Source: Dioscorea cayenensis subsp. rotundata (Eukaryota > Streptophyta > Magnoliopsida > Dioscoreales > Dioscoreaceae). Taken from it: 64,000 nt of DNA. Position numbers and translations under genes: made by a program. The notes beneath the pieces are model-generated. The model was not told the DNA's origin. It saw nothing but the letters and a program-made list of their open reading frames with translations, and made no database searches. Of the stretch, positions 3,584 through 59,310 are shown one piece after another (the stretch's first letter is position 1; each line of letters begins with the position of its first letter). The stretch is taken from positions 186,001-250,000 of the forward strand of contig NC_052489.1 in NCBI RefSeq assembly GCF_009730915.1, written 5' to 3'.

Positions 3584-6500
3584 ATGGGCCAACCCTCCGG
3601 CACTCCGCCTCTTCCCGTCCCTCCGCCACCGCCTCCCCCTGGAAGTTGCCAGGTCCGATGCGCGAGGTGCCACTCTATCCTCACTGTGGCACCGGGGATG
3701 GTGGAGTTTAGTTGCCCCAAGTGCCAGCTCGCCCAGATGCTCCCGCCGGAGCTTATGATGACTGGCGGACCCCCACGTCGCCCCCCGCCTCAAGCCCAGG
3801 GCATCGATCCTTCCAAGATCCAACTCCCTTGCGCCCGATGCAAGGCCATCCTCAACGTCCCTCATGGCCTTAATCGCTTCAATTGCCCCCAGTGCGGTGT
3901 TGACCTCGCTGTCGACCTTTCCAAAGTCCAACACTACTTGGCCTCTTCTACCTCCTCCTCCGCCCTCCCTGGCCTCCTTTCCGAGCCCCTTGAGGAAATC
4001 AACGAGGTAATTGTCCAGTAACTTGTTCTTTTCATTCATTTACTGCAAATGCGGTGTTTTCATTGGTTTGAAGGGATGCCTTTTGTCTTACCTGCTCTTT
4101 TCTGAATGTCAGATGGCCTTTTCTTGATAATTTATTAGTTTATCTTAGACAAATATGTTACAATTGAGATTAGATATTTCTGATGTCCGAGTTAAAGAGC
4201 TACTTGACAATGGTTTGAAATGCTTTAAAGGTGCGTAATCACCTTCTCTTCGATTTTATCTATATGTTTGTAAGTTTGGGCTAAAAGGAACCCATTTTCT
4301 GCACGCTAAATACTTTTGTAGACAAAATGGTTCTCAAGATAGGAATGCCTACTGCAAAATGGATGAACAAAACATGTTGCCTCTTTTCCAGTTTATTTGG
4401 AAATGATTAAGGGTTGAGTAACTTTGTTGAGAGAGATAGGATTATGTATGGTGATTTGAGGAATGCAAGGCTTTCAGATAGTTCTCTACCATGCTTTGAA
4501 TCTGCAAATGTACCATCAACATTGAGCAGAAATGTGTCACCTAGTTAGATTATGCTGAAAATGCTGTTTACAAATCCATGGTTTACCGCCACTTTGTGTG
4601 ACTCTATTTGAATGTAACTTATTGTCCATTGAAATATTTGGTACAATTATTATTAGCCAGGGATACACACAGTTTCTTTGCGAGAAATAATCAGCATTAG
4701 CTGGACTTTGTTTTTTGTTATAAATGTGCTGACTTGGGTGCTATATGTTGGTTGTCGGAGGTGGGAGTCACATCTATTACATGAACTGCAAGGATATATC
4801 TCCTGCTTGTATGAATATTCTTTATCTGCTCATTCTGAAACCTTGATTATTCTTTAGCAACTCATTGTTCATCCCTTAATTTTCTATTTGAATTTTAGGT
4901 TGCCATTGATGTGGAGAGAGAAGAAGATGAAGGTGGTACTGCTGGAGAAACCTTTATGGATTATGTAAGTCTTATTTATTTGAATCTTTGTATGAACCTT
5001 GTTTTGGTGACAAAGGATCTTTTACTATGGATTTTATTCTCTTGAATTTTTTGCTTGTAACAATATTTGGCTTATGTTGTTGATTTATAGAATATTTTTA
5101 TTGTCTGTGGACTCATTTCAGCGACCACTGAAGATATCTCTTGGTTATCCTCATCCAGACCCAGTTGTGGAAACATCATCCTTGTCTGCTGTGCAGCCTC
5201 CGGAACCAACATATGATCTGAAAATTAAGGACGAATTGGAGAAGTCCAGGGCACTTTCATGTTTGCAGATTGAAACAATAGTTTATGCCTGCCAGGTCAC
5301 CTTCTTTTACCCGTTTTAAGTTCCTATTACGTGTTTACGGTTTTTGTGCCAGGTTTTACTAAGTAGATGTGACAGTAGCGCAATCATTTTCAATGACAGA
5401 GGCATCTTCACAAACTCCAAAGTGGTGCAAGAGCAGGTTTCTTTATTGGTGACGGAGCTGGTGTGGGCAAGGGTCGGACTATTGCTGGACTGATATGGGA
5501 AAATTGGCAACATGGGAGGCATAAAGCATTGTGAGTATTTTCAATGGAAAATTCTGCGCACCTCAGTTAAATAACTCATTGTAGATGCCTGAATTTTTTC
5601 CATGTTTTCTTATATGAAAATTTGTTCTGTTATTATTATTATCTGTTCATGTTCTATATTCACCTCTTCTCTTTGGCTTGCTTTTGTTTCCTCTGTTGAA
5701 TATCCTTAAGGTGGATTTCTGTTGGTTCGGACTTGAAGTTTGATGCACGCAGGGATCTAGATGATGTGGGTGCTATGCCTGTGGAAGGTATAGAGCATTG
5801 AATCTTAAGGCACATTTAACATGATTTGTTTGCTTGTCGAGTTCTGATTATCTTGTGAAACAGTGCCATCTATGTTTGCTCATCTATTTCTCTAGTGTAT
5901 GCTACCCACTTCTCCCATGCTAGTATTTTGTATACTTCAGCTTTTTATAGAGTTATAGTTTCCTAAGGTACCTCCATTCTCTTTGTGCACAATTGTTCTG
6001 TAAATTGATCCTGATCTGTTATAATACATGAGAAATTTGACTCTACATAATAGAAAAAGGAAGAAAAAAAAAACAAAATAAAAAAAAAGATTCAGAAGTT
6101 AAAGTCCTTTTTGTGAGCTTAGTGCGTTACATACTGAATGATAGGTATCATGCCAGTTCTTTAGTATTTTTTTGAGTTTGTTTAAATTGTTCAAAAAGAA
6201 TTCAGGTATTTATTGACCTACATAGACTTGTACCCAGCATATGCTGATGGATAAATTAGTTTTCACTTCTTTGGATGCAGTGCATGCTTTGAATAAACTC
6301 CCTTACTCTAAGCTTGATTCCAAAGCTGTTGGTATCAAAGATGGGGTCCTTTTTCTAACATACAGTAGCCTGATAGCATCGTCCGAGAAGGGACGCTCTC
6401 GTTTGCAGCAATTATTGCAATGGTGTGGTTCAAATTTTGATGGTCTTGTGGTGTTTGATGAGGTACTGGAATGCATGATTGTTGTATATTTCTGTTCCTT

Positions 6501-7704
6501 TTAACTTGGCCATCCTTCCTGTTACCTGCACCTTCTGTGAAACACACCTGGCTGCTCCGTATTGTTTTTTGAATATCTTCTGTGATCCACATCTCTATTA
6601 ATTTTGCACAATCCATTGCAGTGTCACAAGGCCAAAAATTTGATTCCTGAAGCAGGAAGTCAAGCTACTCGTACTGGTGAAGCAGTCCTTGAGCTCCAGG
6701 TGTCTAATACCTGCCATTAAATTTATATTGTACATACTAGATTGTGGATAAATATTTTGCTTTTCTTATTAGCCATGATTTTGTGCATAAATTGATGAAA
6801 TAATTTTGTCTCTATATAAACATATAAAATTTGCATTGTGTGATATTTTGAAGATTTATTACTAACATTATGCAATATAAACTGAACCTGAAGCTTTCTT
6901 TGTGCCATTATTACAAGATGAAATTTCAATTTAAAACCATATCTTAGGTGTAAAAGGCTCCCTCTTAAAATTCGAAATGCCTTTTAGATCTTTTTGAACT
7001 TCATTTTTTTTTTTTTTTGGAAATTCAGTGATGGCATCTTATGGTGTTATCTTGTTCAAGTTATATATGCATGTATATTGTTAAACTTCATAAATTTACA
7101 TTTGAAATCAGAGAAGGTTAAGTCCTTAGAATTAGCTGAAGTTTGTCTAACATTGCTGTTTCTGCTTTAAATTTTGTCCTTGTTTTATCCAATTGCTTGT
7201 CTCACTTTGTTACTGTAAAGTATAAGCTTTTCTATTGGCAGGCTCGATTACCTGAAGCCCGAGTTGTTTATTGCTCTGCAACTGGTGCATCTGAGTCACG
7301 TAACATGGGTTACATGGTTCGCCTTGGCCTCTGGGGTGCTGGAACGTGTTTCCCTCGATTCCATGACTTCTTAGGTTTGCTTTTTTGGCCAACTCTTTGT
7401 ACGCTTCCAACTATTTTGTTTTGTGGGTTCAGATTCTTGTGTGTGTGTGTTTGTGTGTAAATTTTTTCAAAGTTGATCCTCTACTAGGATATGGATAGGA
7501 ACCTACTCATAACATTAAGAACTTTCATTTAAAAATCAATACTGATTATGCTTAATACTATTCATGTTCACCATTATGCCTTAGCATGCTTATTACAACA
7601 ATGATTCTATCGACATGCATGAAAAATTTAATATGTTTAAGCTTGGGCAACTATGCCAATTTTAAACTGATTTTTTATCTATTTCCTTTTGTCTGTGTCT
7701 GGTT

Positions 7705-7743
<39 letters not shown>

Positions 7744-10700
7744 GGACATGGTAATTGGTAAATTTGTGTAGAGGCTCTTGACAAAGGTGGTGTTGGCGCG
7801 CTGGAACTTGTTGCAATGGACATGAAGGCAAGGTTAGAGAATGCGTAAATTTGTAGATGCTTACCTTGTGTTTTCTGTTGTTTCTACTATTGAATGTCTT
7901 TGCATTGTTTAGGGGGATGTATGTTTGTCGTACTTTAAGCTTTAAAGGTGTAGAATTTGAAGTGATCGAAGCACCGTTGGAAGAGAAAATGAAGGTATAC
8001 TGCCATATCTTTTGCTGTATAAAGTTCTGTGCGAGATATGTGGGCCTTTACTTCAGCTTTCTACTAGGTGTTGTCATAATTATTCAAATCCTCAACTACA
8101 AATGCTTGAGTTGGGTTATGTTCCTTCTCAGAGATGAAGCCACTACGGCTTAATATCCTCTGATTCCATTTGTCAGAGTTGATGTTTGTATGCTGAATTG
8201 TTGATCTCATCAATTAGTCTGCATGATTTCAGTGAACTTGTACTAAAATTTGATTCGAAATTTTTGTTATTGCCATGGTTTTTTTATGTTAACTTGATTT
8301 GATTGGTTTACTGTGTGGTGCCTGGTTGTGGTGATTTTGATATGTTTTCATTAAAATGTTTTGTATTCATTATTAGGAAATGTATAAGAAGGCAGCAGAA
8401 TTTTGGGCCGAATTACGTGTTGAACTATTGTCTGCGAGCACATTTCTTTCAGAGGAGAAGCCCAATCCTAATCAGGTGTGGCGGTTATACTGGTCCAGCC
8501 ACCAGGTATAGTGTTTGTAAATTTCTAGGAATATCATGCTCTGATGCTGCGATGTTTTCATCTCTTATGTGTTATGACGTAGCCTAACTTTTATTTTGAT
8601 TCTTTTAATTCCCTCAGCGCTTCTTTCGGCACATGTGTATGTCAGCTAAGGTGCCCGCTGCTGTTAGACTAGCTAAGCAGGCATTAGCTGATGGTAAGTG
8701 TGTTGTGATTGGCCTTCAGAGTACAGGAGAGGCTCGAACAGAGGAAGCTGTGACAAAATATGTAAGTTTATTCTTTGCATTTGTGCCTCAATCTCTGTTT
8801 ATGGTTGCATTCTTTGGTTACACTATTCTTGCTGATTTGATCTTTTGCCATCAATAACTGACATTTTAATTACCAGAGCAAATGTGCACCATAAGAAGGT
8901 TTTGTTGGTTTGGTCATGATGCAGGGCCTTGAGCTAGATGACTTTGTTTCTGGTCCACGAGAGCTGTTGCTTAAACTTGTGGAGGAAAACTACCCTTTGC
9001 CTCCAAAACCTGACCCAGTATCAGGTTGTTCTCAACTCTTATTTTTTGCCATTTCAGAACACCATACTCATTTCCAGTTTTTTATTTTACATGTTCTCAG
9101 GTGAAGAAAGTGTTAAAGAACTTCAGCGGAAGAGGCATACAGCAAACCCAGATGTATCGTTTAAAGGAAGAGTGCGAAAGATTGCGAAATGGAATGTTAC
9201 AAGTGACAGCGAAAATGATCTGGAGTCTCTAAGTGAGTCTATTTTGTTGATCATGATGATAATAGAAGTGGATGACAAATGAGGCAAATTAACTAAGTAT
9301 TTAGTCTGAACCTTGTTTTTGTAAGACCTGATTTATAAGATTCCTATTTGGTTATAAATCATATTTGGCCTTTGCCTGTAAGCCCTCTTATGATCCCTTT
9401 TGCAGATTTGTCAAATTCTTGTTTGGTTGATCTATAATATATACTAAGGGTGGGTGAAAAGGGTTATGGCTGGCAGCTAAAAAATAAATGAAAATGAATT
9501 AGGAGGTTGCTGTTACGGTAGTTATATCATTTTAGATTCCGGTGATTATCTATAAGTATACGTACCAAAGTTGATGTAGTTATTGTTTTGGATCCTTATA
9601 TTGGGTATTAAAGACATCGGCCTTACTGCCTCAGAATATAATACACTTTTGGTAGAACCTTTGATTTAACAATGGTGCTGACAAGAAACTGGTCACTTTT
9701 AACAAGAACTCTGAACATAAATGGTCATCCTATGGCGGACCTTAAAATAAATTTCTTCCAATTTTTTAGCCAGACAACTTTATTAGAAATGCATGTGTAG
9801 TGCTCAACGTAAAATGTATTTAAAATGGGTGAATGGTGCAGTATATAATTTCAAATTTTATATTATTTATGCAGCTGAGTCTGATCATGATTCATCTGAA
9901 TCTGATTATGATTTTCAAATCTGTGACATTTGCAATGGTGAAGAGGTAACTCTAGTGTTGGAGTGTTGAATTCTTTGTATTTTCTTTATTTTTTCTATTG
10001 TGACTGATTTTTTTATTGATTTTCAGGAGAAGAAGAAGCTACTTCGCTGCACATGTTGTGGACAGTTGGCCCATCCCTCTTGTATAGACCCTCCATTAAC
10101 AGATGGAGTACCTGCTGATTGGTTATGTTACTCATGTAAAGAAAAGACAGAAGACTACCTGCAGGCAAGAGATGCCTACATAGCTGAGCTTACTAAGAGG
10201 TACTCAGAATTTTCATTGCAGTGTCATGATAATGTTTGAGCAATCACTTTCATTGCAGTACAGAGTTAATGGATAAATGATTAGGTACGAGGCAGCTGAA
10301 GAACGTAAATTGAAGATATTGGACATTATTCGTGGTTTGGACCTGCCTAACAATCCTCTCGATGATATTATTGATCAGGTTAAATCCTTGTTGTCACTAT
10401 TGTTTTGTTTTAGCTGTAGTATTTCTCAATTCTTATGTTCCAGAGCAATTTAAGGTAAATACAAGGTATTCATTTTCTTTTTAGTTGTGTTATTACATGC
10501 AAAATAGATTTGGAACTCAAAAATCATAAGCTGAAAGTTTGATTCCTATTTTTTATTTCAAAATCCTTCCAAAGAACAAATTTCGTTTGGATAGAATGTG
10601 GGGAATGCTTCAACACTTACATGTCATACTATGTTAATTGTCCACTCATTGAAATTTGAATGAAAATGCTTCTTATAGATGTTCTGTTTATTTGGTGCAA

Positions 10701-13700
10701 TATCTTGATTTGAAACATTATGATTAATCATTCAAGATATGTTAGTTTTTTTAGTTTAATCAATTAGAGGGAGAAGAATTCTATATCTTGAAACTAGATG
10801 GAGCACAGCTGTTCTTTACCTTTATATTCTACCTTGGTTAATTCTTTCTGTAAAGATCTACAAAATGAATTTCCAAACTAATTAACTCTCCCTGTGCTTT
10901 TTACATATTTGGAAGAAATGTCTTCCTTTCATAGTTTCATACTTAGGTTTTGCATGTGATTGCAAATCAGAGGTTGCCTGGTATAGGAAATATTGCAAAT
11001 GTGGATAGTGATTCATATGATTTAAGTTATTTTGAAATGCTATTTTCATAATAGGATGATTCCTGGTTAACTAGTGGCTATTCTAGTTCTCTTCTTCCTG
11101 TAGGTTTGACAAAATTCTAGTACCTATTGTATGCTGCTGTTTTGTCTGTTTAGTTCATTTGCCTTGTGGCTTTTCTGGTGATATTTGTTTACAGTTCACA
11201 ACTTTATTAGATTACAATTTGACTCCGCATATGCAATGTTTTCTTTTTCTCTTTATTTCTTTTGTAAGCTGAAGTGATGAGTTAACACTGATCAGTGTCT
11301 CATCCAAAATTGGTATGATATTTTGTATATACTTTGCTGTTAATATCAGCAGCTTCCTCCATTGTTTTGTAGCCTAGAGGTATCTGATTTACCACTTATC
11401 AAATTTTGTATCACCTGAAATTATGCTTCACATGATTACCTGCAGCTGGGAGGCCCAGAAAACGTTGCAGAAATGACTGGCCGACGAGGTATGCTAGTAA
11501 GGGCTGCAGGTGGAAAAGGTGTTGTGTATCAAGCTCGAAACACGTGAGCCGTGATTTTATGGACCTTGTTTCTTTATCTGCATTAATTCCATTGACATCA
11601 AAGAAACTTTGTTACAGAAAGGATGTTGCCATGGAAATGGTGAACATGCATGAGAAACAATTATTTATGGATGGTAAAAAACTGGTTGCTATCATATCTG
11701 AAGCTGGATCTGCTGGTGTCTCACTTCAGGCTGATAGAAGGGCCTCAAATCAGGTATTGCTCTAAGATGACTCTGGCTTTTCAAAAATTGAATTCTTTCA
11801 TTTTTTGTGAGATTATAGACTTCTGAAAAATATAGCTTCAAAAATTTAATGTTTATTTCTCAACATGTGAACTTTCACATGCCAGAAAAGAAGAGTTCAT
11901 TTAACTCTTGAACTTCCTTGGAGTGCTGACCGTGCCATACAACAGTTTGGCCGAACTCATCGTTCTAATCAAGCATCTGCTCCTGAATATAGGTAGATTG
12001 GTATTCCTTAAGCTCATCTATTTCTCATACATGCTAATTACCCCATCTTTGTTATTTTATCATATACTCTGTAAGACCATTCTTATTGGCTAATTTCTCT
12101 CAATTGTAAGTTTAATGGTTTTGTTTGTAAATTCTAAGCTGTTACGATGCTGCAAGAAAACCCCTATCCTTGTAAAAATTGTAGGAAATTTGAAGATTTG
12201 AAAGTGTAATTCTCAGATGTCCTGCTATCTCTTAGATCCTCCAATACTATTCAGTTTTGACCATCTGATTTTTCCAGCCAGTCCAACCTACATATGGATG
12301 AGATTATCCTTGAATGCCCTGTTTCTACATGTCATTTGCAATATATCTTATATAAGGTGATGTGAAAGCTAATAGAAAAGGCATGTCTGTTTAAGTCATT
12401 TGCACATGACTTAAGATTTCCCTTTTACTCAACTGCAATGTCCTAAAATATCTCGTATGTCCATATCTAAAAATTTTTGATAAAAAAATCAAATAACCTT
12501 AGAAATTATTTGAAAATAATAAATGCACGTATTTCACATGTCAAATCAATATCTTTTTTATGGTTGAATTTCAAAGATTGATTGGAAAATATATATTTTT
12601 TGTTAAGTTAGTTCAATTAAAATTAATCAAAATTTGTATTTGAGACATTGATGAGATTGATTAAATTACTTCATGGACATTAATAACTATAGTATTCATT
12701 AAAATGTAATCAATTTGATGTAATATAATTCTATATTTGAAGTAAACTTCACTAAGATTTGTTACAGAATAATTAGCTTAAATTTTTTTAAATTTTTTTA
12801 TAAATGATAAAAATGTTGATCGTAAAAAAAGTAAATTGCATGCTTGATTAAAGTTTATTATATTTTAGTGTTTGATTTAATGCATAATTAGCGGAAGTAT
12901 GTTCCATTTGTTATTTGGTATATATTTATGAAGCATAGCTGGTTGAGCTACCCTTTATGTGAAAATATTTACACTATTTAATGTGTTTAATTTTCTCTTA
13001 TTATATCACATCTCTTCCTAGTGCTGAGGGTACCATTATTCTTTGCTGAAAGGAAGCCGTTTTGGATCCGCACCACATGAAATGCTATATTTATCTTTCT
13101 GGCCCTTTTTGGTCTAGAACACCTCATTACAGGTTAATAAACAAAATTTAGAAGAATGCTTATTATTTGATGGTTGAAATAACAGGGGTGTTGTTAACTG
13201 TGGTATGGTCAGTTTATTTGGGTCTTAGAGCCCATTGTGAACTGCAATTTACATTATTAGTTAAGAATCTAACCATCATTTTAGTTTTGGTGCTATTTTG
13301 TATTCTTTTAATTTTTTTATGATTAAATTTCATTGAATTCAGGAAAATTTGGAAATTTTAGCAAAGCATGAGAAAATGTGGGCATGCTCCATCAAAGATG
13401 CTTCAATGGTTTATAATCACGATAGCTATTCACAGTACAATAGTACCTTCTATTACCCTTGATTGCAATATGAGATACTGGAAGGCATAAGGAACTAATA
13501 ACTAATAATAACATTAGATAAACGAAATACTTAAATGCAAATTATGATCTAGCATAAATGGCTGTTAGAAACATATGTGATGCGCGGACTTTAGTTTATG
13601 GTAACCTTCAGTGTTTGTATGGTAATAGTGGAGTTGGATAATAACACCATTTTCCAACAGGTTCATTTGTTGAATGCACTGTATATCATCACTCATGGTT

Positions 13701-15546
13701 TTCTGAATCAGTTTGTGTAAAAAGTATATCATTCTGAGTTCATGTCATATCCATGATTCTTGGAATTCAATGCCACCACAGTTGGCATGCTTAATTTACT
13801 TCTTAAACAGGATGCTTGTTTTTCATTCATAACTCAGGCTTTTGTTCACAAACCTGGGTGGTGAACGCCGCTTTGCGTCAATAGTTGCAAAGAGACTAGA
13901 ATCCCTAGGTGCCTTAACACAAGGAGATAGAAGGTGAGGTTATTCTGAACTGGATACTTTCTTGGAATATGTATCCTACTTAAATTCGATGCTATTATTC
14001 ATGTTACCAATTCATCTATACAGGGCTGGGCCATCTCTGAGCGCTTTTAATTATGATAGCTACTTTGGGAAGAAGGCCCTTATGATGATGTATAGGGGGA
14101 TAATGGAGCAGGTTCAGAATTTGATCTTTGCTCAGAATACTCTTGTTGCAGAGATATGCTCATTTTTTAGTTTTTCAGGACCCTCTGCCAGTTGTCCCAC
14201 CTGGATGTTCTTCTGAAAATCCAGTTACCATTCAGGAGTTCATCATGAAGGCAAAAGCTGCTCTGGTATCAGTAGGAATCATCAGGGATACAGTTCTTGG
14301 CAAGTACTTGTGATGGTCTATTTTTTATTTGTTTAATTTGGAAAAACTTAACTAACATGTATTACATTTTATGTTGTGTGTCACCTTGGTATTTATATAA
14401 GGCAGACGACATATGATTTTAATGCTTGATTAAATCAATTGTATAAATTTGATACAACTTATTTGCAAATGCACGTATCTACACTATATCTATTTAGAGC
14501 ATGGATAAAGATTGATATTTTTCAGCTATTAATTGCACATGACATTAGAATTTGTGCTAGTGGGTTTCAATTTGACGATTTCAGGTTCATGTTGATTTTT
14601 CTTAATTGCGCTAGCCTTGATCAGATAGTTTTTACAGGATTCTCCTAACTGTCTTTATCATTTTAAAGCTAAATATTTCATACTGATCCATTAATACGCT
14701 TGCACTTAAAAAATGACATCTTAGGAATTTTTTTTTGGCTTTTGGAATTCCTAAGAATATCAGGCACTGGAGGGAGTTTCCTGCTGTCTTCAAAGATTAT
14801 TCTTTTCTCTGTTTCAAGTCAAAGGATAACATGTGCTTTGACGCAGGCAATGGAAAGGATGCTGGCAAGGTTTCTGGTCGGATAGTGGACTCTGATATGC
14901 ATGATGTTGGTCGTTTTCTAAATCGTCTTTTAGGGTTGCCTCCTGACATTCAGAACAGGTCTATGATTTGATTTCATGTTCCATAGTTTGGGTAGAAGTT
15001 ATTGTTTAGAATACTCATTGACATTTCTTTGCCAATTTTCAGACTTTTTGAGCTTTTTATTAGTACTCTCGATGTGCTTGTGGATAATGCACGTAGTGAA
15101 GGACAGTTTGACTCTGGAATTGTTGATGTTAAAGCTAACACTATCGAACTGCAGGGACTACCAAAGGTACTATCATCAAGATTATTTATTAATAAAAATT
15201 CATTTACGTACTTGTATATTGCATCTGCAGACGGTCCATGTCGATGAATTGTCTGGTGCTTCCACTGTATTGTTCACCTTTACTGTCAATCGTGGGATCA
15301 CCTGGGAGGTAGAAATTCCTACAAAATATACTTTTTTCTTCAATCCATATTTGTTAAGTACTCCCAAGATCAATAATGATTTCTATATTTGACCATTATA
15401 GTTTGCTAAAGACTTACTTGATGAGAAGCAAAAGGGTGGACTTAGTTGCAATCCAGATGGTTTTTATGAGTCCAAGAGGGAATGGATGGGAAGGAGACAC
15501 TTTATTTTAGCATTTGAAGGGTAGGCGGTCTTTTTTCATACCTTTT

Positions 15547-15598
<52 letters not shown>

Positions 15599-17524
15599 CT
15601 TTTCTTTTTCTTTTTTTTTTTATAAATACCATTGTTTGGCTTTACCATGATTTGGGATCCTCATTATGCTCTCATAATATGATACTAGACAGATATTTAC
15701 ATGTTACTTTAATATGAGAACTTTTGAATAAGCATTTTTGTTCAGTTTGATTTGCTGTTATATCTCCAAATGTTGGTGGGAAAATTAATCTGCTTTTCTT
15801 CTATTTTTCCTCACAGTTCAACTCCAGGAGTTTTCAAAATATTTCGGCCTGCTGTTGGTGAAGCACTAAGGTAGAAAGAATGGTGATCATACTTTTTACC
15901 CCCTTCAAGATTCTTCATTTTAAAAGTCAAGTCTCATGACCCTATTTCCTTCTCTCCAGGGAAATGCCTTTGGCTGAGTTGAAAAGCAAGTACAGGAAGG
16001 TTTCTTCAATAGAGAAAGCTAGTAAAGGCTGGGAAGATGAATATGATGTTTCATCTAAACAGGTGCTTGTCTTATTTATTGTTTATTTGTTGCAGTTTAT
16101 GTAGCTTTTAAAAACTCCATTAGTCACTTCCTTGCTATTACTTGTTTATCGGATTAAAGTGCATCGCCAGGTCAAAGTTTTTGAGCTAATTTGTTCCTCC
16201 TTTTTTGTCTGAAGTTATGCTTAAATTGATTAGATCACCGTTTAATTAGAACTATACTCTTATTGCCATTATACAACTTTTTGTATTCATATTGTAGTGT
16301 ATGCATGGCCCAAAATGCAAAGTTGGCAGCTATTGTACAGTAGGGAGAAGATTACAAGAGGTGAATGTTTTGGGTGGACTTATTTTTCCTGTGTGGGGAG
16401 CTATCGAAAAGGCCCTTTCTAAGCAGGTACCTGTTTCTGCTTCTGGTACATTGGCTTTTCTTCGTCATCACTATTTCTGCACTGTTATTTTCTTCTATTC
16501 ATATCTTTGGTTTTCAGCTGCTTCAAATTTCTACAGCTTTTTCTATTCTCTTACACAAGTTCTTGACATTTTCTTTAGATCATCAAATTGGTTCTTAATG
16601 CTTTTGGAATATTAGTGTGAAAGGATCAACTAACTTTTAGTGGAAGCAATATGTTTATACTTCAGTGTGAGATTGCTCTTATGTTTGATCATTTTAAGTG
16701 GCTAAATTCTACTTACTTTCAGTTGGTTGATTAGCGGACTTAATTCTTAGTCCTTTTTGTTGGGCAAATCCATTAATCTTTATGGCTTTCCCCAACTTTA
16801 GTCATTAAGTCTTTTAAAGGAGTATTTTCAATTTGGTATTTTACTGGTTGTACTGCTCATAATAAGCAGAACATCATTAATTGAAAAATCAACTTGGTTT
16901 AACAGTTTTTGGGAAAAATTGGTATCCCATCAGGGGTATGGCATGCCTTTTCTTTTTATTGTTTCTTTTCCTTTGCTTTTGTGGCTAAATGCTTGCTAGT
17001 GCATGATTAATTCGAGTAAAATTTGGGTATACCTGTAATTGAGATGCAAAATTTCATTTTCTTTACCCTACTGATATTGTTGGCCATATCAAAGCACATG
17101 CCAATTAAGTGTTTTAAATTTCTTACAGGCTCGTCAAAGCCATAAGAGGATACGTGTTGTGCGCCTAGAGACAACAAGTGATCATCAGCGGATTGTTGGG
17201 CTTCTTATTCCAAATGCAGCTGTTGAGTCCGTGCTGCAAGGTGTGTTCAACTCAACTATATTTGAGTCCACAATCTTGAGCTTTTGCAACTTTTATTTAT
17301 TTTATTTTATTTATTTATTTATTTATTTTGCAAATAAATAAAATCCATTTTCCCCATGATTTCATTATTTCCCTTAGAGATGGTATCAATCTTTCATGTG
17401 AATTAACAATCTTGGTTGGTTTGCTTCATACATGAAATTCATCTTGTTGATTTCACATGCTCACTGCTATAGCTTTTGTTTTCATGTGCCAGATTTATCA
17501 TGGATTCACCAGATTGATGATTGA
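3584..17524 (+). CDS. FGT1: FORGETTER1 / Strawberry notch-type helicase-like co-regulator
   Basis: Complete gene, 32 exons, about 1252 aa (Arabidopsis FGT1 is about 1295). Exons: 3584-4006, 4899-4964, 5122-5295, 5400-5530, 5711-5787, 6281-6462, 6622-6699, 7242-7374, 7772-7832, 7913-7994, 8377-8505, 8618-8761, 8925-9024, 9101-9232, 9875-9945, 10027-10199, 10285-10378, 11446-11543, 11618-11753, 11886-11992, 13838-13933, 14024-14111, 14179-14299, 14847-14958, 15043-15166, 15231-15308, 15402-15520, 15817-15870, 15960-16062, 16298-16426, 17129-17240, 17493-17524. Two LSD1-type zinc fingers (C26/C29/C44/C47 and C83/C86/C101/C104) precede the helicase core: Walker A with GKGRT at 244-248, DECHK at 350-354, SATGASE, a PHD finger at about 654-698, and motif [11 protein letters not shown] at 849-857. 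Known family role: nuclear; FGT1 associates with SWI/SNF and ISWI remodellers and sustains heat-memory gene expression. The intron after exon 23 uses a GC donor. The last exon has 32 nt. Confidence 0.95.
7708..7740 (+). repeat. (TC)n microsatellite in FGT1 intron
   Basis: About 16 TC units, directly upstream of exon 9 and serving as part of its polypyrimidine tract region. Confidence 0.9.
11993..13837 (+). other. Longest FGT1 intron (1.85 kb), no nested gene seen
   Basis: Intron between exon 20 (helicase motif VI) and exon 21. AT-rich, especially 12430-13010. It has ordinary GT and AG borders (ATAG|GTAGA and CTCAG|G). No open frame, tandem array or recognisable transposon end was found in it. 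Confidence 0.6.
14300..14846 (+). other. GC-AG intron in FGT1 (intron 23)
   Basis: Exon 23 ends ...GTTCTTG and the next bases are GCAAGT. The matching acceptor is ...ACGCAG at 14846. Joining there gives LGNGKD, which fits the family sequence and keeps phase (1 nt + 2 nt). No GT near 14300 gives the same reading. GC-AG introns are a known minor class, and the rest of the donor (AAGT) is strong. Confidence 0.8.
15551..15594 (+). repeat. (TC)n microsatellite in FGT1 intron
   Basis: About 22 TC units followed by a T-rich tract, in the intron between exons 27 and 28. Confidence 0.9.
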
Positions 17525-18872
17525 CATGCACAGCAGAATCCATAGTTCAATTTATTCTGATCAAGTTTTGAAATGACTAGAGGAAAAAAAAACTACAAAT
17601 ATAACTAGCGCAATCCAGCTGTGTCCCTGCGCATTTTGTCACTGAGATCCAGCATTACTGGAAGTCAAGTTACCCTTCCCTTAAGAGCTTCAGTTGTGTC
17701 TTGGGAGAAGGGGGGAGGGGGGCCCCTTCAAAGCCGAGGAGGGTTACTTAACAGTTAACGTATTGCCCTGTAATATTTGAGAGCTTACCACCGTGTAAGA
17801 AGTTAGTACCACCAATTCATCACCAGCCTTAGCGAGCGGAATAGGCGGTGCTGGGCAGGCCAATATTCTTCAGAAGCCTGTGGTTCGGGCATTGAGGGGG
17901 TTACTGATTACTTTGATCATAGCACTCCCTGTTTTGTATGTAGTATCACCTCAACAAATACTCTTTTTAATTTTTCTGTATATTGGTGTTCATGCCTCGA
18001 TCAATTACGAGTAAGTTTTACCAGCTCCAACTTATTTTTCAAAAGATCTTTTATGGTAGTAATTTTTATATATATATATATATATATAGCTCTTTTTCAG
18101 ATGTCCCATCTCATCCAATTATGTAAACTTGACTCTATTTTTGTGTTTCATTGAAACAATCTTATCTGTTAGTTTCCACTTTCCACCACCTTGTGGACCA
18201 ACAATCTTTTAATTAAATCAAGAATTATTTTAAATAACTACAGACAAAATAAATTAAGAGTTCTGTTTCTTTTTTTGCTTACAGGGCTAAACATATTTAT
18301 ATAGTACTAGAAATGAGGGGGCAAGGATATTGTGTTTTTTTTTTTAAATAAAAAATAAAAAATAAAAAATAAACTTTTTTTTTAATGATAAATCATGCTG
18401 AGTTAAAGAGGATGAAAATCCAATTAAAAAATAATTACAACAAATTATATTATAAATTTCAATAGAAAAAAGTAAAATATAAAACAAAGGTCATATTTAT
18501 CTTTCTGTTTCTCAAAGCTACATCGAATTAGGAAACCATTGCCAATCGAGTCGAGTGACTGTGATTCAACTCAAGTGTCGTGTGTGGTCCGCCTAGAGAG
18601 AGACCCACAGTCCACGGTTCACACTTCAAATGCCGAGAGAGTGAGAGAGTGAGACTTCATCCTCGTCATCGTCCCTGCTAGCGACGTGGAGCCCACTGTC
18701 TTCTTTTGTTATTCTAATTATTCTATAAATATCGAACCTCTTCTTCCCTTTTTTTTGTTTCCCTTATTTCGCTGTCTTCTTCTTTCGCGGGCTCTGCTTT
18801 TTTCCTCTCTCGTCTCCTCACCCACCCAACCCAATCCCACTTCTTTCTTTACATCTAAGAACCCTAACTCTA

Positions 18873-18874
<2 letters not shown>
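17525..18874. other. Intergenic: FGT1 3' flank and MOM1-like promoter
   Basis: No gene recognised. 17700-17730 has a G-rich run with GGGGGGAGGGGGG, and a TA dinucleotide tract lies at about 18068-18089. 18330-18480 is AT-rich with repeated AAATAAAA. 18540-18860 becomes C/T-rich and is the likely promoter and start of the leader of the next gene. No convincing TATA box position was chosen. Confidence 0.5.

Positions 18875-18914
<40 letters not shown>
18875..18914 (+). repeat. (CT)n tract in the MOM1-like 5' leader
   Basis: About 20 CT units followed within ten bases by AAACCCTA (18923-18930), a telo-box-like motif common in plant 5' leaders. CT tracts near transcription starts are frequent in plants; any regulatory role here is inference. 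Confidence 0.8.
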
Positions 18915-18916
<2 letters not shown>

Positions 18917-18948
18917 ATCCCCAAACCCTAGAATCATCACTCGCCGTG

Positions 18949-19093
18949 GTATCTCTTTCCCCCCTTCCCTTTTTTTTTCTTCTGTTTTTGTTTTTTTGGG
19001 GGGTTTTTGTAGTTGGTATTTCTTCAAGAGACTTGCTTTGCAGCATTGTTGCTAACCTGTTTCTTGTGTTGATTTTTCGCGTTTAATCTGCAG
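18949..19093 (+). other. Probable 5'UTR intron of the MOM1-like gene
   Basis: A donor GCCGTG|GTATCT at 18949 and an acceptor ATCTGCAG at 19093 enclose a T-rich stretch in the untranslated leader, 64 bp before the chosen start codon. Inferred from splice consensus only. Confidence 0.5.
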
Positions 19094-19156
19094 GTCTTCG
19101 GCTAGGTTTACCTACAGGGAAAGCTTGACTGCTTAATCTCTACTGTTGCTGCTTCA

Positions 19157-22100
19157 ATGGCTTTTAACTCAAGCAACCAAGGTTATACTCGTGTTTTTTT
19201 TTCTTTCTCTTGTTGTTTGAGTATACCGGACAATATCTTGTGGTTTTCTATTTGTGTTTCATGTTTGATGACTTCTTTTTCCCCTTTTTCACTCAGCAGC
19301 ACACTGTGCTTTCACTTTTCAGAGTTTGTTTGAGGATTGAGATGAAGGGAGAGATAAAGAACATAGTTAAGTCAATGAAAAAGAGTAAATTAATATTCAT
19401 AAAATTTTTTAAATTAATTATTAGCAGAACCATTAATAACTCAAGTTAGTTCTCAATTTAGTTTGGTATTAATAAATACAACCACAAAGATAGTAGAAAA
19501 TTTATAGCTTGAGTAGATCCTCATTGTTACGTTAAAGTGTGTTACTCTGTTGTTCAGCAGAGTCTCAATTCCAAAAGGATACTCTAGTGGCAAGTTGCTA
19601 TTGATTGCGACCTCTCTTTGGAAATGAAATATTTGATTTTTGTCTCTCTTGTTTTCTGCCCTTCACTTTCCTTTTATTTCCAAAGTTTTCTTTTTGGTCT
19701 TTTTATCAATGTCTTCATCTTGTGCTTACATTGATTTATGGACTTATTTCTTGTTTTCAAATGGGATCTGGGATCTGGCCTGCATATTTTCTTTTAACAA
19801 TTCATATTGATCTTCTACTGTGCTTGTGCACATTGTTTTCTGCTCTTGGGACAGTTTAAGGGCTTTGCTGAATTCATACATCACAGGACTAGTTTGACCT
19901 TTAAGATTCTCATCCTCAAATCTACACATATTTATTTGATTGTTTTCACTGCTTACTTTTGCCATTGACATGCAAGTGATATCCAAAACTTTCCTTGTTT
20001 TAAGGTCACCTTGGTGCTTCAAAGAGATGTAAGTGTAAACTTGGTTTCATAAAGTCTAATAAGTTCTTGAGTTTATCCAATCTTGCCAAAGAAAATGGAT
20101 TACTAGGTTCACTGAGTTGAAACCTTGTTAATCAGATCTTATTTGACATCTGATCTGCAGCAATCATTATGGAACCAGATGTTGCTTCTGGTCAATCTCA
20201 TTCCCAGCTTCTCAAAGAGATTGAATCATGGAAAGCGGAACTCCTGACGAAACGGATTGATTTGGTTGAGAAAACTTGTGAGCAAAGAATTGAATTACTG
20301 CTTCAGAATCAACTAGAAGAGGTTACAGAATTCTGCAGGTATAGGGAAGCAGAAAGGGTGAAATTACAGAAAGCACATGATATGGATTTGGACCGTATGC
20401 AAGCTCTGCGTATCGATACTTATGTTAAAATTAATAAGATGAACTTATTGCATGAGAAGTTTTTGGTAAAATTGGACGCATTTGATCATCACATGAAGGG
20501 CCAGCGTAGGAAACTTATTGTCAAACAGTTAGATGCAAGGGCTAAGGAAGGGCGGTTGCGTGATCGTTGGTTGGAAGATGTTAAAGCTGGTAGACTCTCA
20601 GAGACTTTTGATGAACTTGCTTTATCTGGTACTGGATTTTGTCTGGAACGGTTCAAGTATGGTGAGAGTGATGGAGTTGGCGATGAATGCCCTGGGAGCA
20701 AATTGCGCGACTCTGGTCTTTCTTTAGGCAAGCAGAGTGCTGATAAAGTTTCAACTGGATCAGCAGAACGTGCTGACATTTGTGGAAGTTATACCAAAGC
20801 TTCCATAAATTCTACAAATGAAAGTGCAGCAGAGGCACCTACCGAACCTGGAAAGTTTGTTTCTCATTCCTGTAGTTTGGGTGCAGCAGAAACAATCGTT
20901 CAACCTATTAAAACCGCTGAAGTTTTGGAAATTGGTACTAATACGACAAAATGTGACGCTTCCCATCAGACTGAGACCCTATTGTCTTCTTTTGTCGTGA
21001 TAGATGCGGCAGTACACAAGCGTGATGCATTTATTTCTAATTCAGAAGCAGTCACTGAAGCTGGAATTGCTGTTGAAGCTAAGTCATCTCATTCTGAATT
21101 GGGTGGCGTAAGTAATCTACTTAATGAGTTTGATGCTATCCCTTCTAGATTAGTGACACCACCACCAGTTGACAAGCCCGATGAGATGGGAACTTCATTA
21201 TTGTCATCTTGTGTCAGGAATAAAGCAGACTCTAAGCATGATTCAGTGGTTTTTAGCTCTCAAGGAACAGATGGAGTCTGCATCCCCATTGTAAACAATA
21301 TACTTCAATTAGATGGCATAAATGCAGCATCAGATGAAGTTGAAGAAATCCAGCCTAAACTAATGGCAAAAGCAAGAGTTGACAATCCTCTCGAGACTCA
21401 AACTCCTTCTTCACCAATAATCAGGAGTTCAGCAGTTAATGAGCTTGATATTATCACTAACGCAGAGGCAAACTCTGGAGTTGGCATGGTCCTTGACAAT
21501 GTAACTCTTTCATCATCATCAAATAAGGAAAAGGTGGTATCCTGTGATTATGAGCCAACTCCTGCCAAACCAGGAGCAGCATCAGGAGTCGGCAGTCCTG
21601 TTGAATGTGAGTCTCCATCTCTATCCACTGTTAGAGATGCAACAGTCAATGGGGTTGGTGCCTCTGTTACTAATTTGGAATTAACAAATATAGTTGGGAT
21701 ACCGCGTGAGGAGAAGATTCTGCATTTGTCAGATGCGACAAATGTAGCAGCAGACAAACCTAATGCGGTTAACATTGAACTGGGACCTGCTGCTGAATTT
21801 GATGGCGAGCTTGATAATGTGGTTACTGATTTGGAAGCGGCAAACAGGGTTCGTGTGCCTCTTGTGACAAAGAGTTTGCATCCATCAGATGCGACAAATG
21901 CAGCAGCAAACGTACCTAACGAAACAATTGACTCTATCTTGGAGCCAACTGCTAGAATGGAAACAACCTTCGGAGCTGAGATGCCACCTGCATCTGATGC
22001 CATGTTTGCAGCAGCTGGCAAATTTGATGCAATTTATACTTCCTCTGCGGGGAGACAACTTAATAATCCGCAATATCAATGTGTGTATTCTGATAGTGCT

Positions 22101-24280
22101 TTTTTGACATCCCTTCCTCTACAAAGTCAAATAGAGGTCCCTTCCTCGAGCCAAGTCTGGCCAAGCTTTGCATTAGAAAACCCTATGGCATCTAATCAGG
22201 TACACATGTCTGGCCAAACTTATTTTGCATCAGGTTTTAAGTAGGAAGATCTTATATGCATTTGCTTGTAAATCCTAAGTTTAAATGAGCCTGCTAACTT
22301 ATTGACAAAATTGAAAAACAAATGTAAAAGCATGAAAACTGGTGTGCATGTCTCAAAGATATTCAAAGTATATTAGAAGTATGGATGCATAGTTAGTAAT
22401 TTTGCTTTATCAAAGAGAGGAACGGGTAGCTATAAAATTATATAAACTTACCTAATGATGTAACATAAAGCGTCTTTTATTAGATCAAGTTAAACATAGC
22501 ATTTTGACAAGTTCTGGGAAATCATTCCCCAAAAAATTCTTACTATGCGTGGCATATTTGGCTGTGGCCAATTAGTTTTGGAGGCGTACCTTCTGCTGCA
22601 AAAGTTGAGGGCGAAGTTCTGGAGTTTTGGGGGAGCTCCTCTAATCCTTAACAACTACTTGGGTATGCATGGAATTATGATTGTTTAGGAAGTGTCTTGG
22701 AATTTGTTATAATAAACCGGAAACACTGTGTGTTGGGTGAGGTGGTCCTAGTTTCCTATCTCCGGAAATAAGACAGAACTGTGCATTTTCTTACGGGAAT
22801 GGTGTAATTGACAAAGTATAACATATTCTGGAAATTTTGCCTGACCAGGCTCTGGATGCTAGCAACCAAGAATGTGGCATCAATAACAGACCGGTGGTTG
22901 ACCAAGAGTTATCTCCTCTACCAAGCATGTTTCCTGCATTGAGGTCTATTATTTCTGAGCCTTCCCAAGCACCGCAAATCAATCATAATTTGGTGGGATC
23001 AGGTTGTTTTCAACTGAACCATCCCACACCTAATGAAACAGAACATGGTGACAATCAAACAAGCGCAACTGAACAAGGACCTTACCAAATTGGTTTTTCA
23101 AATCCAGATATCTCAGAGCCAAACATTGCTTCCCTCTCACAGTTTGAACCATCTAATCAACCATTCTCACAAGCTCCTGTGCAGCCAATGTCTTCACCTG
23201 CTAATATTCCAAGAGAAGGAATGCAATCACAGGACGTTGGAAGCATCTCTTCGGTGTCAGGCAATCTATTGAATGAACTTCAAGCACAACTGAGAATGCA
23301 TCCACAATGTCTGCAATCAAATCCATTTGACAATGAATTGACGAAGATTTCTAAACTGAATGAGGTTTTGAGCCAAATGCATGAAGATAAGGTTTTCCTC
23401 TCGGACCCTTGTATTGAGGCTTCATTATCCTCTCATTTTCAATCCCTTTGTACTTGCCTGATATCTATGCTTTGTCTGACAGAAACAGAAAATCAAATTG
23501 GAATGTGAGAAAGATCTTGAATCTGTCAAGAGGAAGTATGAGGCACTGATTCAGGAGGCTGAGCAAAATTTTGTGCAAGGGAAAAAATTATTTCAGACAA
23601 TATCAGAGAGAGTGAATAACAATATAATTTTAGCAGCACAATTCAGGGACAAATTCTACGAAAGCAAGGGAAGAACTCCTGCCGCATCTTGTGGTATACA
23701 TCTCAGCATTATTCCCTGCTTGTCTGTCTGATTGTATTCTTTCCTTGTCTTGCTCAGCCTTACGTAATTAGTCCTATTTGGTACATGTTGTCCATAGTTA
23801 AAAGTTGATGTTGATAATCTGTCAAATTCTACTTCCTGTACTCGTTTTCCAGGTGCAACGATGACACAGCAGATTCCTCAGGTATGGCAGCAGCCAGCAA
23901 TTCTGCGGCCCTCTTCACCATTAACCTCAGCACCAGCTCCTGCCCGAGCTGGTCTTCCTTCAATGCCTGCAGGTTCTCCTCAGTTAGCAATGCGGCACCA
24001 AGATGCGGCCTTTCCTCATCAAATGTTCCAGTACACTCATCCAATCTTTCCGGGCAATTCAGACAGATGCAACTTCAGCATGGCACTACCTTCACAACCA
24101 CAACCACCAAGTCGGCAAATTGGAAGGGATATCCGATTACCTGCTCCTCATCTCCAATCATCAAGATACCGACCATCATTGCTCACCCCAAGTCAAACAT
24201 CTGGGCTCCAAACTGGCAGTTCAATGGGTCGTGAAAGTACTTGCACCGGCATGGGGCTTGGTGATAATAATATCCTCTAA
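19157..24280 (+). CDS. MOM1-like protein with CMM2 domain but no SNF2/helicase region
   Basis: Five coding exons: 19157-19181, 20161-22199, 22849-23391, 23483-23693, 23853-24280 (stop TAA); 1081 aa. The start was chosen at 19157 because MAFNSSNQ joins in phase to the big exon; 20169 is an internal alternative. Residues about 25-156 form a charged, coiled-coil-like block (LLKEIESWKAELLTKRI onwards). Residues about 300-690 are a serine/alanine-rich linker with degenerate repeats. Residues about 846-935 (NPFDNELTKISKLNEV, then KLECEKDLESVKRKYEALIQ) resemble the MOM1 CMM2 segment, a coiled coil that dimerises and binds PIAL SUMO-ligase-like proteins. The tail is Pro/Gln/Ser-rich. Chromodomain, PHD and SNF2 parts of full MOM1 are absent: a CpG-rich leader and promoter-like sequence precede the start. 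The likely role, by family, is transcriptional silencing in the nucleus; that is inference. Confidence 0.75.
21031..21915 (+). repeat. Degenerate ~50-aa coding repeats in the MOM1-like linker
   Basis: A module of the form I/V-T/S-N/D-x-E ... G-I/M/V occurs at about 21031 (ISNSEAVTEAGIAV), 21452 (ITNAEANSGVGMVL), 21666 (VTNLELTNIVGIPR) and 21822 (VTDLEAANRVRVPL). The last two are tandem with a 156-bp period and both run on into the nearly identical SDATN-AA segment (about 21729 and 21885). A third shorter SDA-AA piece follows at about 21994. In frame throughout, so expansion left the coding sequence intact. Confidence 0.7.
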
Positions 24281-26180
24281 TTCTGAGAATGCGCCCCTTA
24301 TAAACTGTATGTCCAGCAATGCTACATTCTTGTGATGCTGTTCAGGTTGGAGGTTTGCTGGCATTGCCTGCGTCTAGGACTTGATGCTCCAGATCTTAGT
24401 AATTGTTGCAGCAGGTGGTGTCTGCTGATCAAGTTTGGAAAGGGTGATGCTGCGCATCTTCTAACATTTTGCAACATACTTGAGTTTTTGTTTTTATTGT
24501 CTTGTTGTTAAGAAATGCAGGCATGATGCACATGGGGGTAAGTTGCTGTTGTCGTTTGGAATTCTGTTTCTGTTTCATTGTCCCTAATGTATAGACATTA
24601 AGATAAATTTATAGTTAGATGGTAGTGTTCATAGCTGTTGCGTACTGGGCTTTTTTAACTAGAATTTTTATTTTATTTTAAATTATTTATAAAAGTTATT
24701 ATATATATATATATATATTTTTTTTTTTTATAAAATGGATAAATTCACAGGAGAGAAAAATGAACATTCAAATATTCAATCATGCACTCTTACTCCTGGA
24801 TGTGTTCCACTCTGGTAGTAAATCTGAATTTACGTCAAAGACTCGTTATTATTATTATTTTGTTATTATTATTTTATTGAGAGAATTTAAATTTACGATA
24901 ATAAAAGTTTCCCACCTCTTAAATAGTGTTGTGCGGTTGAGTTATAAGCTTGTTGGCATAATTATATAAATTATTTTATTAGCATTCCGAAAACCTGGAT
25001 GGGCGGCCAAGCATTGTTTAAGCTAATCAGCGTTGTGGACCAGGTCTCACGGTGTTGTGTTAACCTACATGGCCACGTGGCCCAAAAATCCCGTCCAATC
25101 TGAATAAAACGCACCGTGGAGCACGCGGAAGAACGCGTGGAAAACCGGCCTGACACGTATCCGTACCGTGTCACATCTTCTCCGCAGATGCTCTCGCGCT
25201 CACTGCTGTCCCACAACACACCTCAACAGATAGACACGTGTACGGTCAGGATATGGGTTTTCTCATGTAGTAGCTTAGTAGTAGCAGCAGTAGTACGTAC
25301 TACTACTAGTAGTAAAACAGCAATAAGAATAATAATAATAATTATATATTATATATTACAAAAAAGGGTGGGACAGCAGGAGGCGGTTGGAAGTGAGTGG
25401 GTGGAGGGGTCCAGCACCGAGTAAGACCCAAACTACACATCTGGCGCGTAAACGTGAAAGGAGAAAGGGCCAAGTGGCTGGGCATAAGCGGTGCACGGCT
25501 CTTGCCCACTAATTTCAAGACAACAGTCACTAGGACGACGGCAGGAAGGACACATTAGCCGCTCTTGAACTCGTTGAAAACTCTTCATTACTTTAAAAGG
25601 GTAAGTAATCCTCTCAATGCTCTCATCCTGCGTGTCACCACGCACCGCGTGTCACGTTGTTTCCTCTCTCTTCCTTGTTTACTCGGAAACATCTCTCTTG
25701 TTTTTCCTTCTTCCCCCTTAACATTCTTATATTTACCTTTAAACTCTTTGTTTTTTTTAAAACTTTTTATATATATAATATATATATATATATATACATA
25801 CGAGCACTTCTTTTGAAAATAATTTTTATATAAATTATATATAAATACACTTTATTAAAAAAATATATATTGTTGAATTATTTATTTTTTTAAAAAAAAA
25901 TTATTTTCTCCAATATTTTGATATGTATATATAAATGGATGAATATCATTGAAATGATGGGGTTAATAGCAAAATAAAATATTGACATTTGAGAGGGGTA
26001 TAATGGAAACTTGATATATTTATTTTTTTAATAGCAGCCATGGGAAGCCGGGGGCGGCGGGCAAAGGCAGTCAAAGCACTCATTGACCACACCGAATGTT
26101 CACTCTCTCTCTCTATCTCTGTTGTTTGCCGCTCCACCCGCAACTTCCTTTTGGTTCCCTCTTTCTCTCTCTAAATCTCT
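24281..26180. other. Intergenic: MOM1-like 3' flank and ERF promoter
   Basis: 24281-24650 is the probable 3'UTR. 24660-24960 and 25740-25960 are AT-rich with TA tracts. 25263-25315 holds an AGT/ACT repeat centred on the palindrome AGTAGTACGTACTACT. 25050-25240 contains several ACGTG/CACGTG-like cores. Near 26080 lies TTGACC, a W-box type core. No gene recognised. Confidence 0.5.
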
Positions 26181-26183
26181 TGG

Positions 26184-26324
26184 TCTATATATATCCCCAC
26201 TTCTCCCCCAACCTTTCTCACTGCTTTCCTCTCATCATCAACAACAACAATAAGAAGGGAAGAAGAGTAGAAGAGAAGATCCAGGTGGTACTACTCCTCT
26301 CTCTCTCTCTCTCTGTCTTCATTC
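26184..26324 (+). promoter_or_regulatory. TATA-like box and CT-rich leader of the ERF gene
   Basis: CTATATATAT at 26184-26193 is followed by a C/T-rich segment, a CAACAACAA stretch and a (CT)n run at about 26297-26313, directly before the ERF start codon at 26325. The placing fits a short 5'UTR; no transcript evidence is available. Confidence 0.6.
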
Positions 26325-26918
26325 ATGGCTCCCAAAGAGAAGAAGCCCCGTGCTTTTGTCAAAGCTCCGGCCATCAACGACAAGGAACCGCACTACAGAG
26401 GCGTCAGGAAGAGGCCCTGGGGAAGATACGCGGCGGAGATACGCGACCCTGTGAAGAAGAGCCGTGTCTGGCTCGGTACCTTCGACACCGCCGAAGCTGC
26501 GGCGAGGGCTTACGACGCTGCCGCCCGTGACTTCCGTGGTTCCAAAGCCAAGACCAACTTCCCATCCCTTGATTCCCGTCCTGGTAGTCCTAGTAGCACC
26601 GTTGAGTCCTCCAGCCGCGATCCTTCCGCCACTCCTCCCGCGCTTGATCTCGGCCTTGATCTCCTTCACCGAAGCTTTCGGTTCCCCTTCCAGCCTTACA
26701 CGCCCGCCTCCGGCATCCACCCCATGTTCCTCTTCGATCCTAATCGGCACCGCTTTGCCGTCGATCCGTCCATGGGATTGAGGGATCCTCACGGTCCGGC
26801 CCAAAGCGACTCGGATTCATCCTCCATCGTCGATTTGCACCACCAGCTGTCACCACCGCCGAGGAAGATGGTCTTGGATCTGGATTTGAATCTCCCCCCT
26901 CCTCTGGACATCCTTTGA
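26325..26918 (+). CDS. AP2/ERF transcriptional repressor with C-terminal EAR motif
   Basis: Intronless, 197 aa. Residues 23-81 form one AP2/ERF DNA-binding domain: [19 protein letters not shown], then the second half [17 protein letters not shown], ending KTNFP. The Ala and Asp at the ERF-diagnostic positions of the second strand (AAEIRD and LGTFDTAE) point to an ERF rather than a DREB factor. The middle is Pro/Ser-rich. The C-terminus has [10 protein letters not shown], an EAR repression motif of the DLNxxP/LxLxL type that recruits TOPLESS-type co-repressors. This matches ERF group VIII (AtERF3/4/7-9 relatives), nuclear repressors that bind GCC boxes in ethylene, ABA and defence responses. 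The coding region is far more GC-rich than its flanks. The exact orthologue cannot be assigned. Confidence 0.92.
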
Positions 26919-37743: not shown

Positions 37744-38481
37744 ATGGCAGCCATATTGTTTGGAGCTCGAAGCACCATACTCAAGACCAATGTCACCAAG
37801 TCCCTCCCCCCTCTCCGTCCTAAGGCCAACAAGCTCTGTTTCCCAGCTGCCTCCAAATCCTCCAAGGTATATATATATACATATACGTATACAAACACTC
37901 TGAATTAATACATATATAACAATTAATGGGTTAATTACGGTTTGAATATTATTGTTTAATTTGTTTACTTGCAGGCCAGGGATGGTGGCACTTCCTCGTC
38001 TTCGGATGATGAGAGAGAGTTAAGAGACAAGACGAAGGAAGCAGCAGAGAGGACCAAAGAGAAGGCTAAAGAAGGAGTTCAGAAAGCTGAGGAAACGTCC
38101 GAAATGGCCAAAGAGAACACCAGAGAGAAGCTGGACAAGGCCAAGGAGGGAACAAAGTCCATGGGAGAGAAGGCCGAGGAGAAGGTAAAAGAAGGAGCGA
38201 AGAAGGCCCAAGAAGGAGCAGAGACTGCCAAGGAGAAGACCAAAGAAGGAACGAGCAAGGTGACCGAGACTGCCCAGAACTTGGGAGAGAAGGCCAAGCA
38301 GACTGTGCAAGGAGCTTGGGGAGCAGCCAAGGAAACCACGCACAAGATCAAGGAGACGGTGGTGGGGAAGGCGGAGGATGATCTTAATGCTGCTGCTGCT
38401 GCTGATGCAAAGAGGGAGGCTGATCTCAAGGCTGAGGCTAAGAGACGCGCCAGAGAGGCCACTACTAAGGATGATTTCTGA
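37744..38481 (+). CDS. Group 3 LEA protein (LEA_4 family), organelle-targeted
   Basis: Two exons: 37744-37866 and 37975-38481 (TGA); 209 aa. Residues 1 to about 45 are Ser/Thr/Lys/Arg-rich without acids, resembling a mitochondrial or plastid targeting peptide, and the intron falls just after it. Residues about 55-160 are degenerate 11-residue repeats rich in Lys, Glu, Ala and Thr (for example TKEAAERTKEKAKEG and AGAKKAQEGAETAKEKTKEG-type units), the hallmark of LEA_4 proteins. These are unfolded in water and become amphipathic helices on drying, protecting membranes and enzymes. The C-terminus is Ala-rich and ends TTKDDF. Promoter ACGT elements upstream fit ABA or desiccation control. The start codon has the good context ACCATGGC. 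Whether the target is mitochondrion or plastid is not settled. Confidence 0.9.
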
Positions 38482-59297: not shown

Positions 59298-59310
59298 AAT
59301 GGATTAATAG

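Follow-up and report, generated by a model that had tools for sequence, protein, structure and literature searches.

A candidate paralogue of the C-terminal half of MOM1, beside a longer MOM1, in Dioscorea cayenensis subsp. rotundata

MOM1 is a CHD3-derived silencer which carries an SNF2 domain or the remnant of one and, in several homologues, also a PHD finger and chromodomains, and the Arabidopsis protein has a CMM3 region with the SUMO-interaction motif VVCLS at its C-terminus. Its silencing activity has so far been poorly explained. Described here is a gene at positions 19157-24280 (+) of the window, by which the whole analysed stretch of 64,000 nucleotides is meant (C19:186001-250000 of the 584-Mb assembly of Dioscorea cayenensis subsp. 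rotundata). Its product corresponds to the C-terminal half of MOM1 and appears to be a divergent paralogue, like Arabidopsis MOM2 (At2g28240), a C-terminal MOM1 homologue with CMM2, and it likewise occurs beside a longer MOM1.

The CMM2 of Arabidopsis MOM1 (At1g08060) is described as a hendecad coil (PMC3276543) which dimerises and binds PIAL1/2 (PMC3276543, PMC6084981). According to PMC10338684, AtMOM2 was recovered by immunoprecipitation and mass spectrometry together with MOM1, PIAL1/2, PHD1 and AIPP3, its binding to PIAL2 was seen in yeast, and tethered AtMOM2 acts on FWA in dependence on PIAL1/2 and MORC6. The likeness of the Dioscorea protein to AtMOM2 is one of description, not of AtMOM2 sequence, and it has its limits, as CMM3 is preserved in AtMOM2, which also contains a region of tandem repeats (PMC2507757), and neither feature was found here. 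Poplar PtMOM2 and PtMOM3, given as truncated derivatives of PtMOM1, are also comparable by description; PtMOM2, however, retains a complete SNF2 domain (PMC2507757), unlike the Dioscorea protein.

Gene layout and relation to a longer MOM1

A sequence-only reading of this DNA had proposed a protein of 1081 amino acids from five exons, with an N-terminal coiled-coil block, a C-terminal segment resembling CMM2, no chromodomain, PHD or SNF2 region, and a CT-rich leader with a probable intron in the 5′ untranslated region. All of these points were recovered. Five exons with GT-AG borders yield 1081 codons and a stop at 24278-24280, with the ATG at 19157 being the first past the 5′ intron deduced from the sequence. 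The features of the gene are the following:

18875..19156 (+), CT-rich leader and 5′ untranslated region, with the CT-rich part at about 18875-18914; read from the sequence
~18949-19093 (+), probable intron of the 5′ untranslated region, from the GT..AG consensus only
19157..19181 (+), coding exon 1, 8 codons and 1 base, followed by a GT-AG intron at 19182-20160
20161..22199 (+), coding exon 2, N-terminal coil and long linker; a self-match in the genome search
20253..20657 (+), coil, residues 40-174, homologous to the coil behind the Pfam MOM1 domain of the longer gene
22849..23391 (+), coding exon 3, whose final 25 codons open CMM2
23317..23671 (+), CMM2, residues 845-932, split by an intron at 23392-23482
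23483..23693 (+), coding exon 4, the bulk of CMM2; modelled as a helix
23853..24280 (+), coding exon 5, Pro/Gln/Ser-rich tail without CMM3 at its end

From its N-terminus, the protein opens with a helical block, continues through a long linker to another helix inside residues 845-932, and closes with the Pro/Gln/Ser-rich tail. For the N-terminal block, a piece of 165 residues starting at protein residue 12 was modelled; a single long helix spans its residues 6-139, in a single-sequence prediction with a mean pLDDT of 85.4 for the best of five models, 65.3 for the worst and a pTM of 0.46. Exon 4 alone was modelled as a helix over residues 2-61 of 70 with a mean pLDDT of 92.

A search of the whole genome for a fuller MOM1 found one on contig C22. 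The Pfam MOM1 family (PF25029) has 13 matches in the genome, two of which, at C22:419996-421628, belong to one gene with reading frames from C22:411000 to about 425430; the gene in the window is not among the 13. The order along the C22 gene is two chromodomain matches, SNF2, helicase-C, the MOM1 domain, a coil, CMM2 and the CMM3-like C-terminal end DVVCISDDEN. The SNF2, Helicase_C and both chromodomain matches were below the Pfam cut-offs in one scan, and one chromodomain was above its cut-off in another. A PHD-like cysteine pattern at the start of the gene was recognised by eye only and extends over two frames; the Pfam scan of this gene listed no PHD finger. A genome search with PF00176 (SNF2) gave 72 matches, none of them on C22, as would be expected of a degenerate remodeller split by introns. 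At 29 loci covering part of these SNF2 matches, parts were scanned or translated and nothing examined resembled MOM1; the CHD-type loci encountered there are what we take to be a CHR4/PKR1-like gene, on C6, and two or more PICKLE-like ones, on C3 and C19. The gene in the window as the sole MOM1 of this genome was rejected, given the longer MOM1 on C22.

The short protein aligns solely with the C-terminal half of the C22 gene, and it does so colinearly and without gaps in the coils. Its N-terminal coil shares 55 of 135 residues with the C22 coil (41%, E 3e-32) and its CMM2 shares 38 of 88 (43%, E 1e-25), the latter identity being more than chance would be expected to produce. Both genes have an intron within CMM2 at the same place and in phase 0, after MHEDK (MHEDK|K), and in both the following exon ends in phase 1. 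Exon 5 has a weak match (E 0.003) to the last coding exon of the C22 gene. When the whole genome was searched with the short protein, at least six matches arose from nine candidates, four being its own larger exons and two lying in the C22 gene (E 7.6e-27 and 6e-9); the search kept the best candidates, so that these counts are a lower bound. Residues 294-698 gave no alignment to C22, whereas the coils align, and selection on the coils is therefore suggested. A scan of viral contigs with exon 4 found no relative.

The homology begins inside a single C22 exon, and the short gene has its own leader and first exon; it may have arisen by partial duplication or by later loss of the 5′ part. Over 54 aligned CMM2 residues the short protein and C22 share 23 identities, Arabidopsis MOM1 and C22 share 18, and Arabidopsis MOM1 and the short protein 15. 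These numbers, being pairwise identities and not a tree, hint that the duplication is perhaps no older than the split from Arabidopsis; alternatively, Arabidopsis MOM1 may be evolving fast.

The short protein retains the coil situated after the MOM1 domain as well as CMM2; the chromodomain and SNF2 half, the Pfam MOM1 domain, CMM3 and a strong nuclear localisation signal were not detectable. Pfam gave nothing for the protein at E<=1, including SNF2, chromodomain, helicase-C and PF25029, and nothing at E<=0.1 for the forward frames of 17525-20160, intron 2 and 24281-26300. The protein ends in GMGLGDNNIL, and no CMM3-like pattern was seen in the forward frames of 23400-25599; a pattern scan gave three loose matches to a SUMO-interaction motif inside the protein, at 110, 389 and 528. 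The same kind of scan found no clear nuclear localisation signal, its sole hits being one minimal KKQK, at position 869, and a bipartite match, loose in kind, at 124, and the half of the C22 gene which the short protein is without contains the signal RKKRRK. The short protein hence shares CMM2 with both MOM1 proteins, and the coil and the position and phase of the intron with C22, and differs from them by being without chromodomain, SNF2, helicase-C, a Pfam MOM1 match, RKKRRK and a C-terminal CMM3. No tandem array was found by TRF in 20161-24280 (score 40), and no internal repeat by self-BLAST of residues 176-690 (E<=1).

Identity of the C-terminal coil

Two trims of the C-terminal coil were queried against 177635 distinct PDB sequences, and 3VEM, the solved CMM2 of MOM1, was the top match for both (E 0.029 for the 131-residue query). 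Taken alone this match is suggestive only. However, the C22 CMM2 matches 3VEM with an E of 8e-7, and as the C22 gene thereby ties the short protein's coil to 3VEM, its assignment to CMM2 can be regarded as firm. A similarity to CMM2, which the sequence-only reading had named as a point on which its proposal would stand or fall, was hence found. The N-terminal coil had no match to 3VEM. A chance match between coiled coils was rejected, as 3VEM came first for both trims, the N-terminal coil did not match and C22 provides a firm link. A search of the genome with an Arabidopsis CMM2 fragment returned 0 candidates, which is uninformative since the C22 CMM2 is present and was missed.

Over residues 847-918, a range picked by the analyst, 14 shuffles in 10000 attained the hydrophobic power seen at the hendecad period 11/3; for the heptad period 3.5 the number was 8918 and for the plain helical period 3.6 it was 28, with the peak of the periods tried at 3.636. 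This pattern supports the reading of the coil but is not specific to it. In the shorter range 853-903, period 11/3 was equalled in 111 of 10000 shuffles. None of the tested periods stood out in the N-terminal block. The coil is clearly not heptad-based, and, as period 3.6 scores nearly like 11/3, a hendecad is allowed rather than proved. Of the positions in CMM2 at which Arabidopsis mutants were made (PMC3276543, PMC6084981; residue numbers derived from the construct 1700-1814), F1736 and L1740 are kept in the alignments, L1761 is replaced by Ile, and L1765 by Cys, which is also found in C22. A dimer through this CMM2 is plausible.

Neighbouring genes and a repeat carrying a piece of MOM1

The gene directly upstream is of helicase type and lies on the same strand:

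3647-17524 (+), FORGETTER1/strawberry-notch gene with FGT1 zinc ribbons, AAA_34 and Helicase_C_4 (Pfam)

Its own stop is at 17522-17524, with the splice to the C-terminus deduced and that C-terminus being presumably the one of FORGETTER1. Its Pfam families differ from those of MOM1. A PHD match in this gene (21.1 bits, cut-off 24) is below threshold and sits at about 10027-10137, between AAA_34 and Helicase_C_4.

Of the 13 Pfam MOM1 matches, the eleven beyond those in the C22 gene all cover profile part 12-62. Stops occur in the matched stretch of nine of the eleven, and also in the match of the C22 exon itself. The copies of the repeat concerned are given here with their source:

L031, L033, L034, L037:3334-7208 and L038:3531-7340, repeat copies; source C22:419708-420150

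Three compared copies have 2.0-3.1 kb in common at 93.9-96.8% identity. Two of them hold a 443-bp intron-plus-exon piece of MOM1 (93.2 and 96.6%) and the third holds 158 bp of it (98.7%). The copies on C21 and C19 are alike over 3.88 kb (93.6%), and this common stretch has sharp ends. No long terminal inverted repeats turned up in the copies, although short ones could remain, and the MOM1 piece was all that Pfam found in L037. It looks as though a dispersed, apparently mobile element has picked up part of a transposon-silencing gene; crosstalk by small interfering RNAs between captured fragments and their donor genes is treated in a review (PMC8616336).

Elsewhere in the window there are four further features:

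26328-26915 (+), AP2/ERF factor (PF00847) with an EAR-like DLDLNLPP near its end, by eye
37960-38481 (+), Lys/Glu/Ala-rich frame, judged by eye to be LEA-like; Pfam gave nothing for it at E<=0.001
52127-53766 (-), polyphenol oxidase (Tyrosinase, PPO1_DWL, PPO1_KFDV) over two overlapping frames, from either a frameshift or a short intron
59273-59776 (+), retroelement fragment with a zf-RVT match

Proposed role and alternative readings

On the whole, the data are best explained by a paralogue of the C-terminal half of MOM1 which works as an accessory subunit, and we consider this somewhat better than an even proposition. By analogy with Arabidopsis, its CMM2 would most likely form pairs, either with a second copy of itself or with its counterpart in the longer MOM1, and would most likely bind PIAL-type SUMO-ligase-like proteins, and a second MOM subunit would in this way be added to the complex which links to MORC and to RNA-directed DNA methylation. 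Its import into the nucleus would probably be in the company of its partners, as it has no strong nuclear signal of its own. Several points weigh against this explanation. The direct match of the coil to Arabidopsis CMM2 is weak, and with the 88-residue query 3VEM (E 0.7) is barely better than the next match (0.79). The hydrophobic period does not tell a hendecad from a plain amphipathic helix, and L1737, an end-surface residue tested in Arabidopsis, aligns with an Asp. Moreover, Arabidopsis mom2 mutants showed no TSI silencing defect in the account of PMC2507757, and MOM2 seemed of little role at the sites tested in PMC10338684, so that the role of the subunit may be a minor one.

The same mutant result would fit with a drifting paralogue without function, kept open by chance, as Arabidopsis MOM2 was labelled at first. 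Neither CMM3 nor a clear nuclear localisation signal was found, and even the best-kept parts are at 41-43% identity only. Yet 1081 codons are open and the splice borders are intact despite deep divergence, and the two coils align gap-free where residues 294-698 do not, which makes loss of function a rather doubtful explanation. The sequence-only reading had instead considered a naturally minimal MOM1, being either a derived paralogue or a sign that this lineage can do without the remodeller part. The kinship to MOM1 and the derivation as a paralogue are borne out by the homology to the C22 gene. Dispensability is not supported, as the same genome carries a longer MOM1 with chromodomain and MOM1-domain matches and, below threshold, SNF2 and helicase-C. 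That a stand-alone protein would silence by itself could draw on the finding that CMM2 with a nuclear localisation signal is enough for part of the silencing by Arabidopsis MOM1 (PMC2507757, PMC3276543), and the short protein does have CMM2 without the remodeller half. Arabidopsis miniMOM1, however, required that signal (PMC2507757), and none that is clear was found here, which weakens the idea of a minimal MOM1; together with the longer MOM1 on C22, this renders silencing by the short protein on its own improbable.

Retention of CMM2 while other parts are absent would also be compatible with a competitive regulator which takes up CMM2 or PIAL partners, leaving fewer active MOM1 dimers. As tethered Arabidopsis MOM2 promotes silencing and needs PIAL1/2 to do so (PMC10338684), we give this little chance. 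Far less probable still is an incomplete gene model, with remodeller exons lying upstream or lost in the assembly. Helicase-type exons with a PHD match below threshold are indeed present directly upstream on the same strand, but they encode FORGETTER1 domains and end in a stop of their own, the PHD match is enclosed by AAA_34 and Helicase_C_4, and Pfam shows no domain in 17525-20160 at E<=0.1; this model was rejected.

As a paralogue of the C-terminal half of MOM1, the protein belongs to a kind that is already known; it adds a lineage to it, and the comparison opens the role of short MOMs to testing. No further short MOM emerged among the papers listed in the literature search, nearly all of which were off topic or had MOM1 only as a gene name. 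It is conceivable, if only tentatively, that plants beyond the Arabidopsis lineage have a two-part MOM system, in which a longer MOM1 pairs via CMM2 with a short MOM of coil and CMM2 that is old and has its own promoter, and that the 'non functional' MOM2 exemplifies a subunit of the MOM1-PIAL complex which has either been conserved or evolved repeatedly. With coil and CMM2 but without remodeller, strong nuclear localisation signal and CMM3, and beside a longer MOM1, the protein would be a natural test of CMM2 on its own, and it bears on whether the short MOM of Arabidopsis belongs to the complex as a conserved subunit or stands for an accident that happened more than once.

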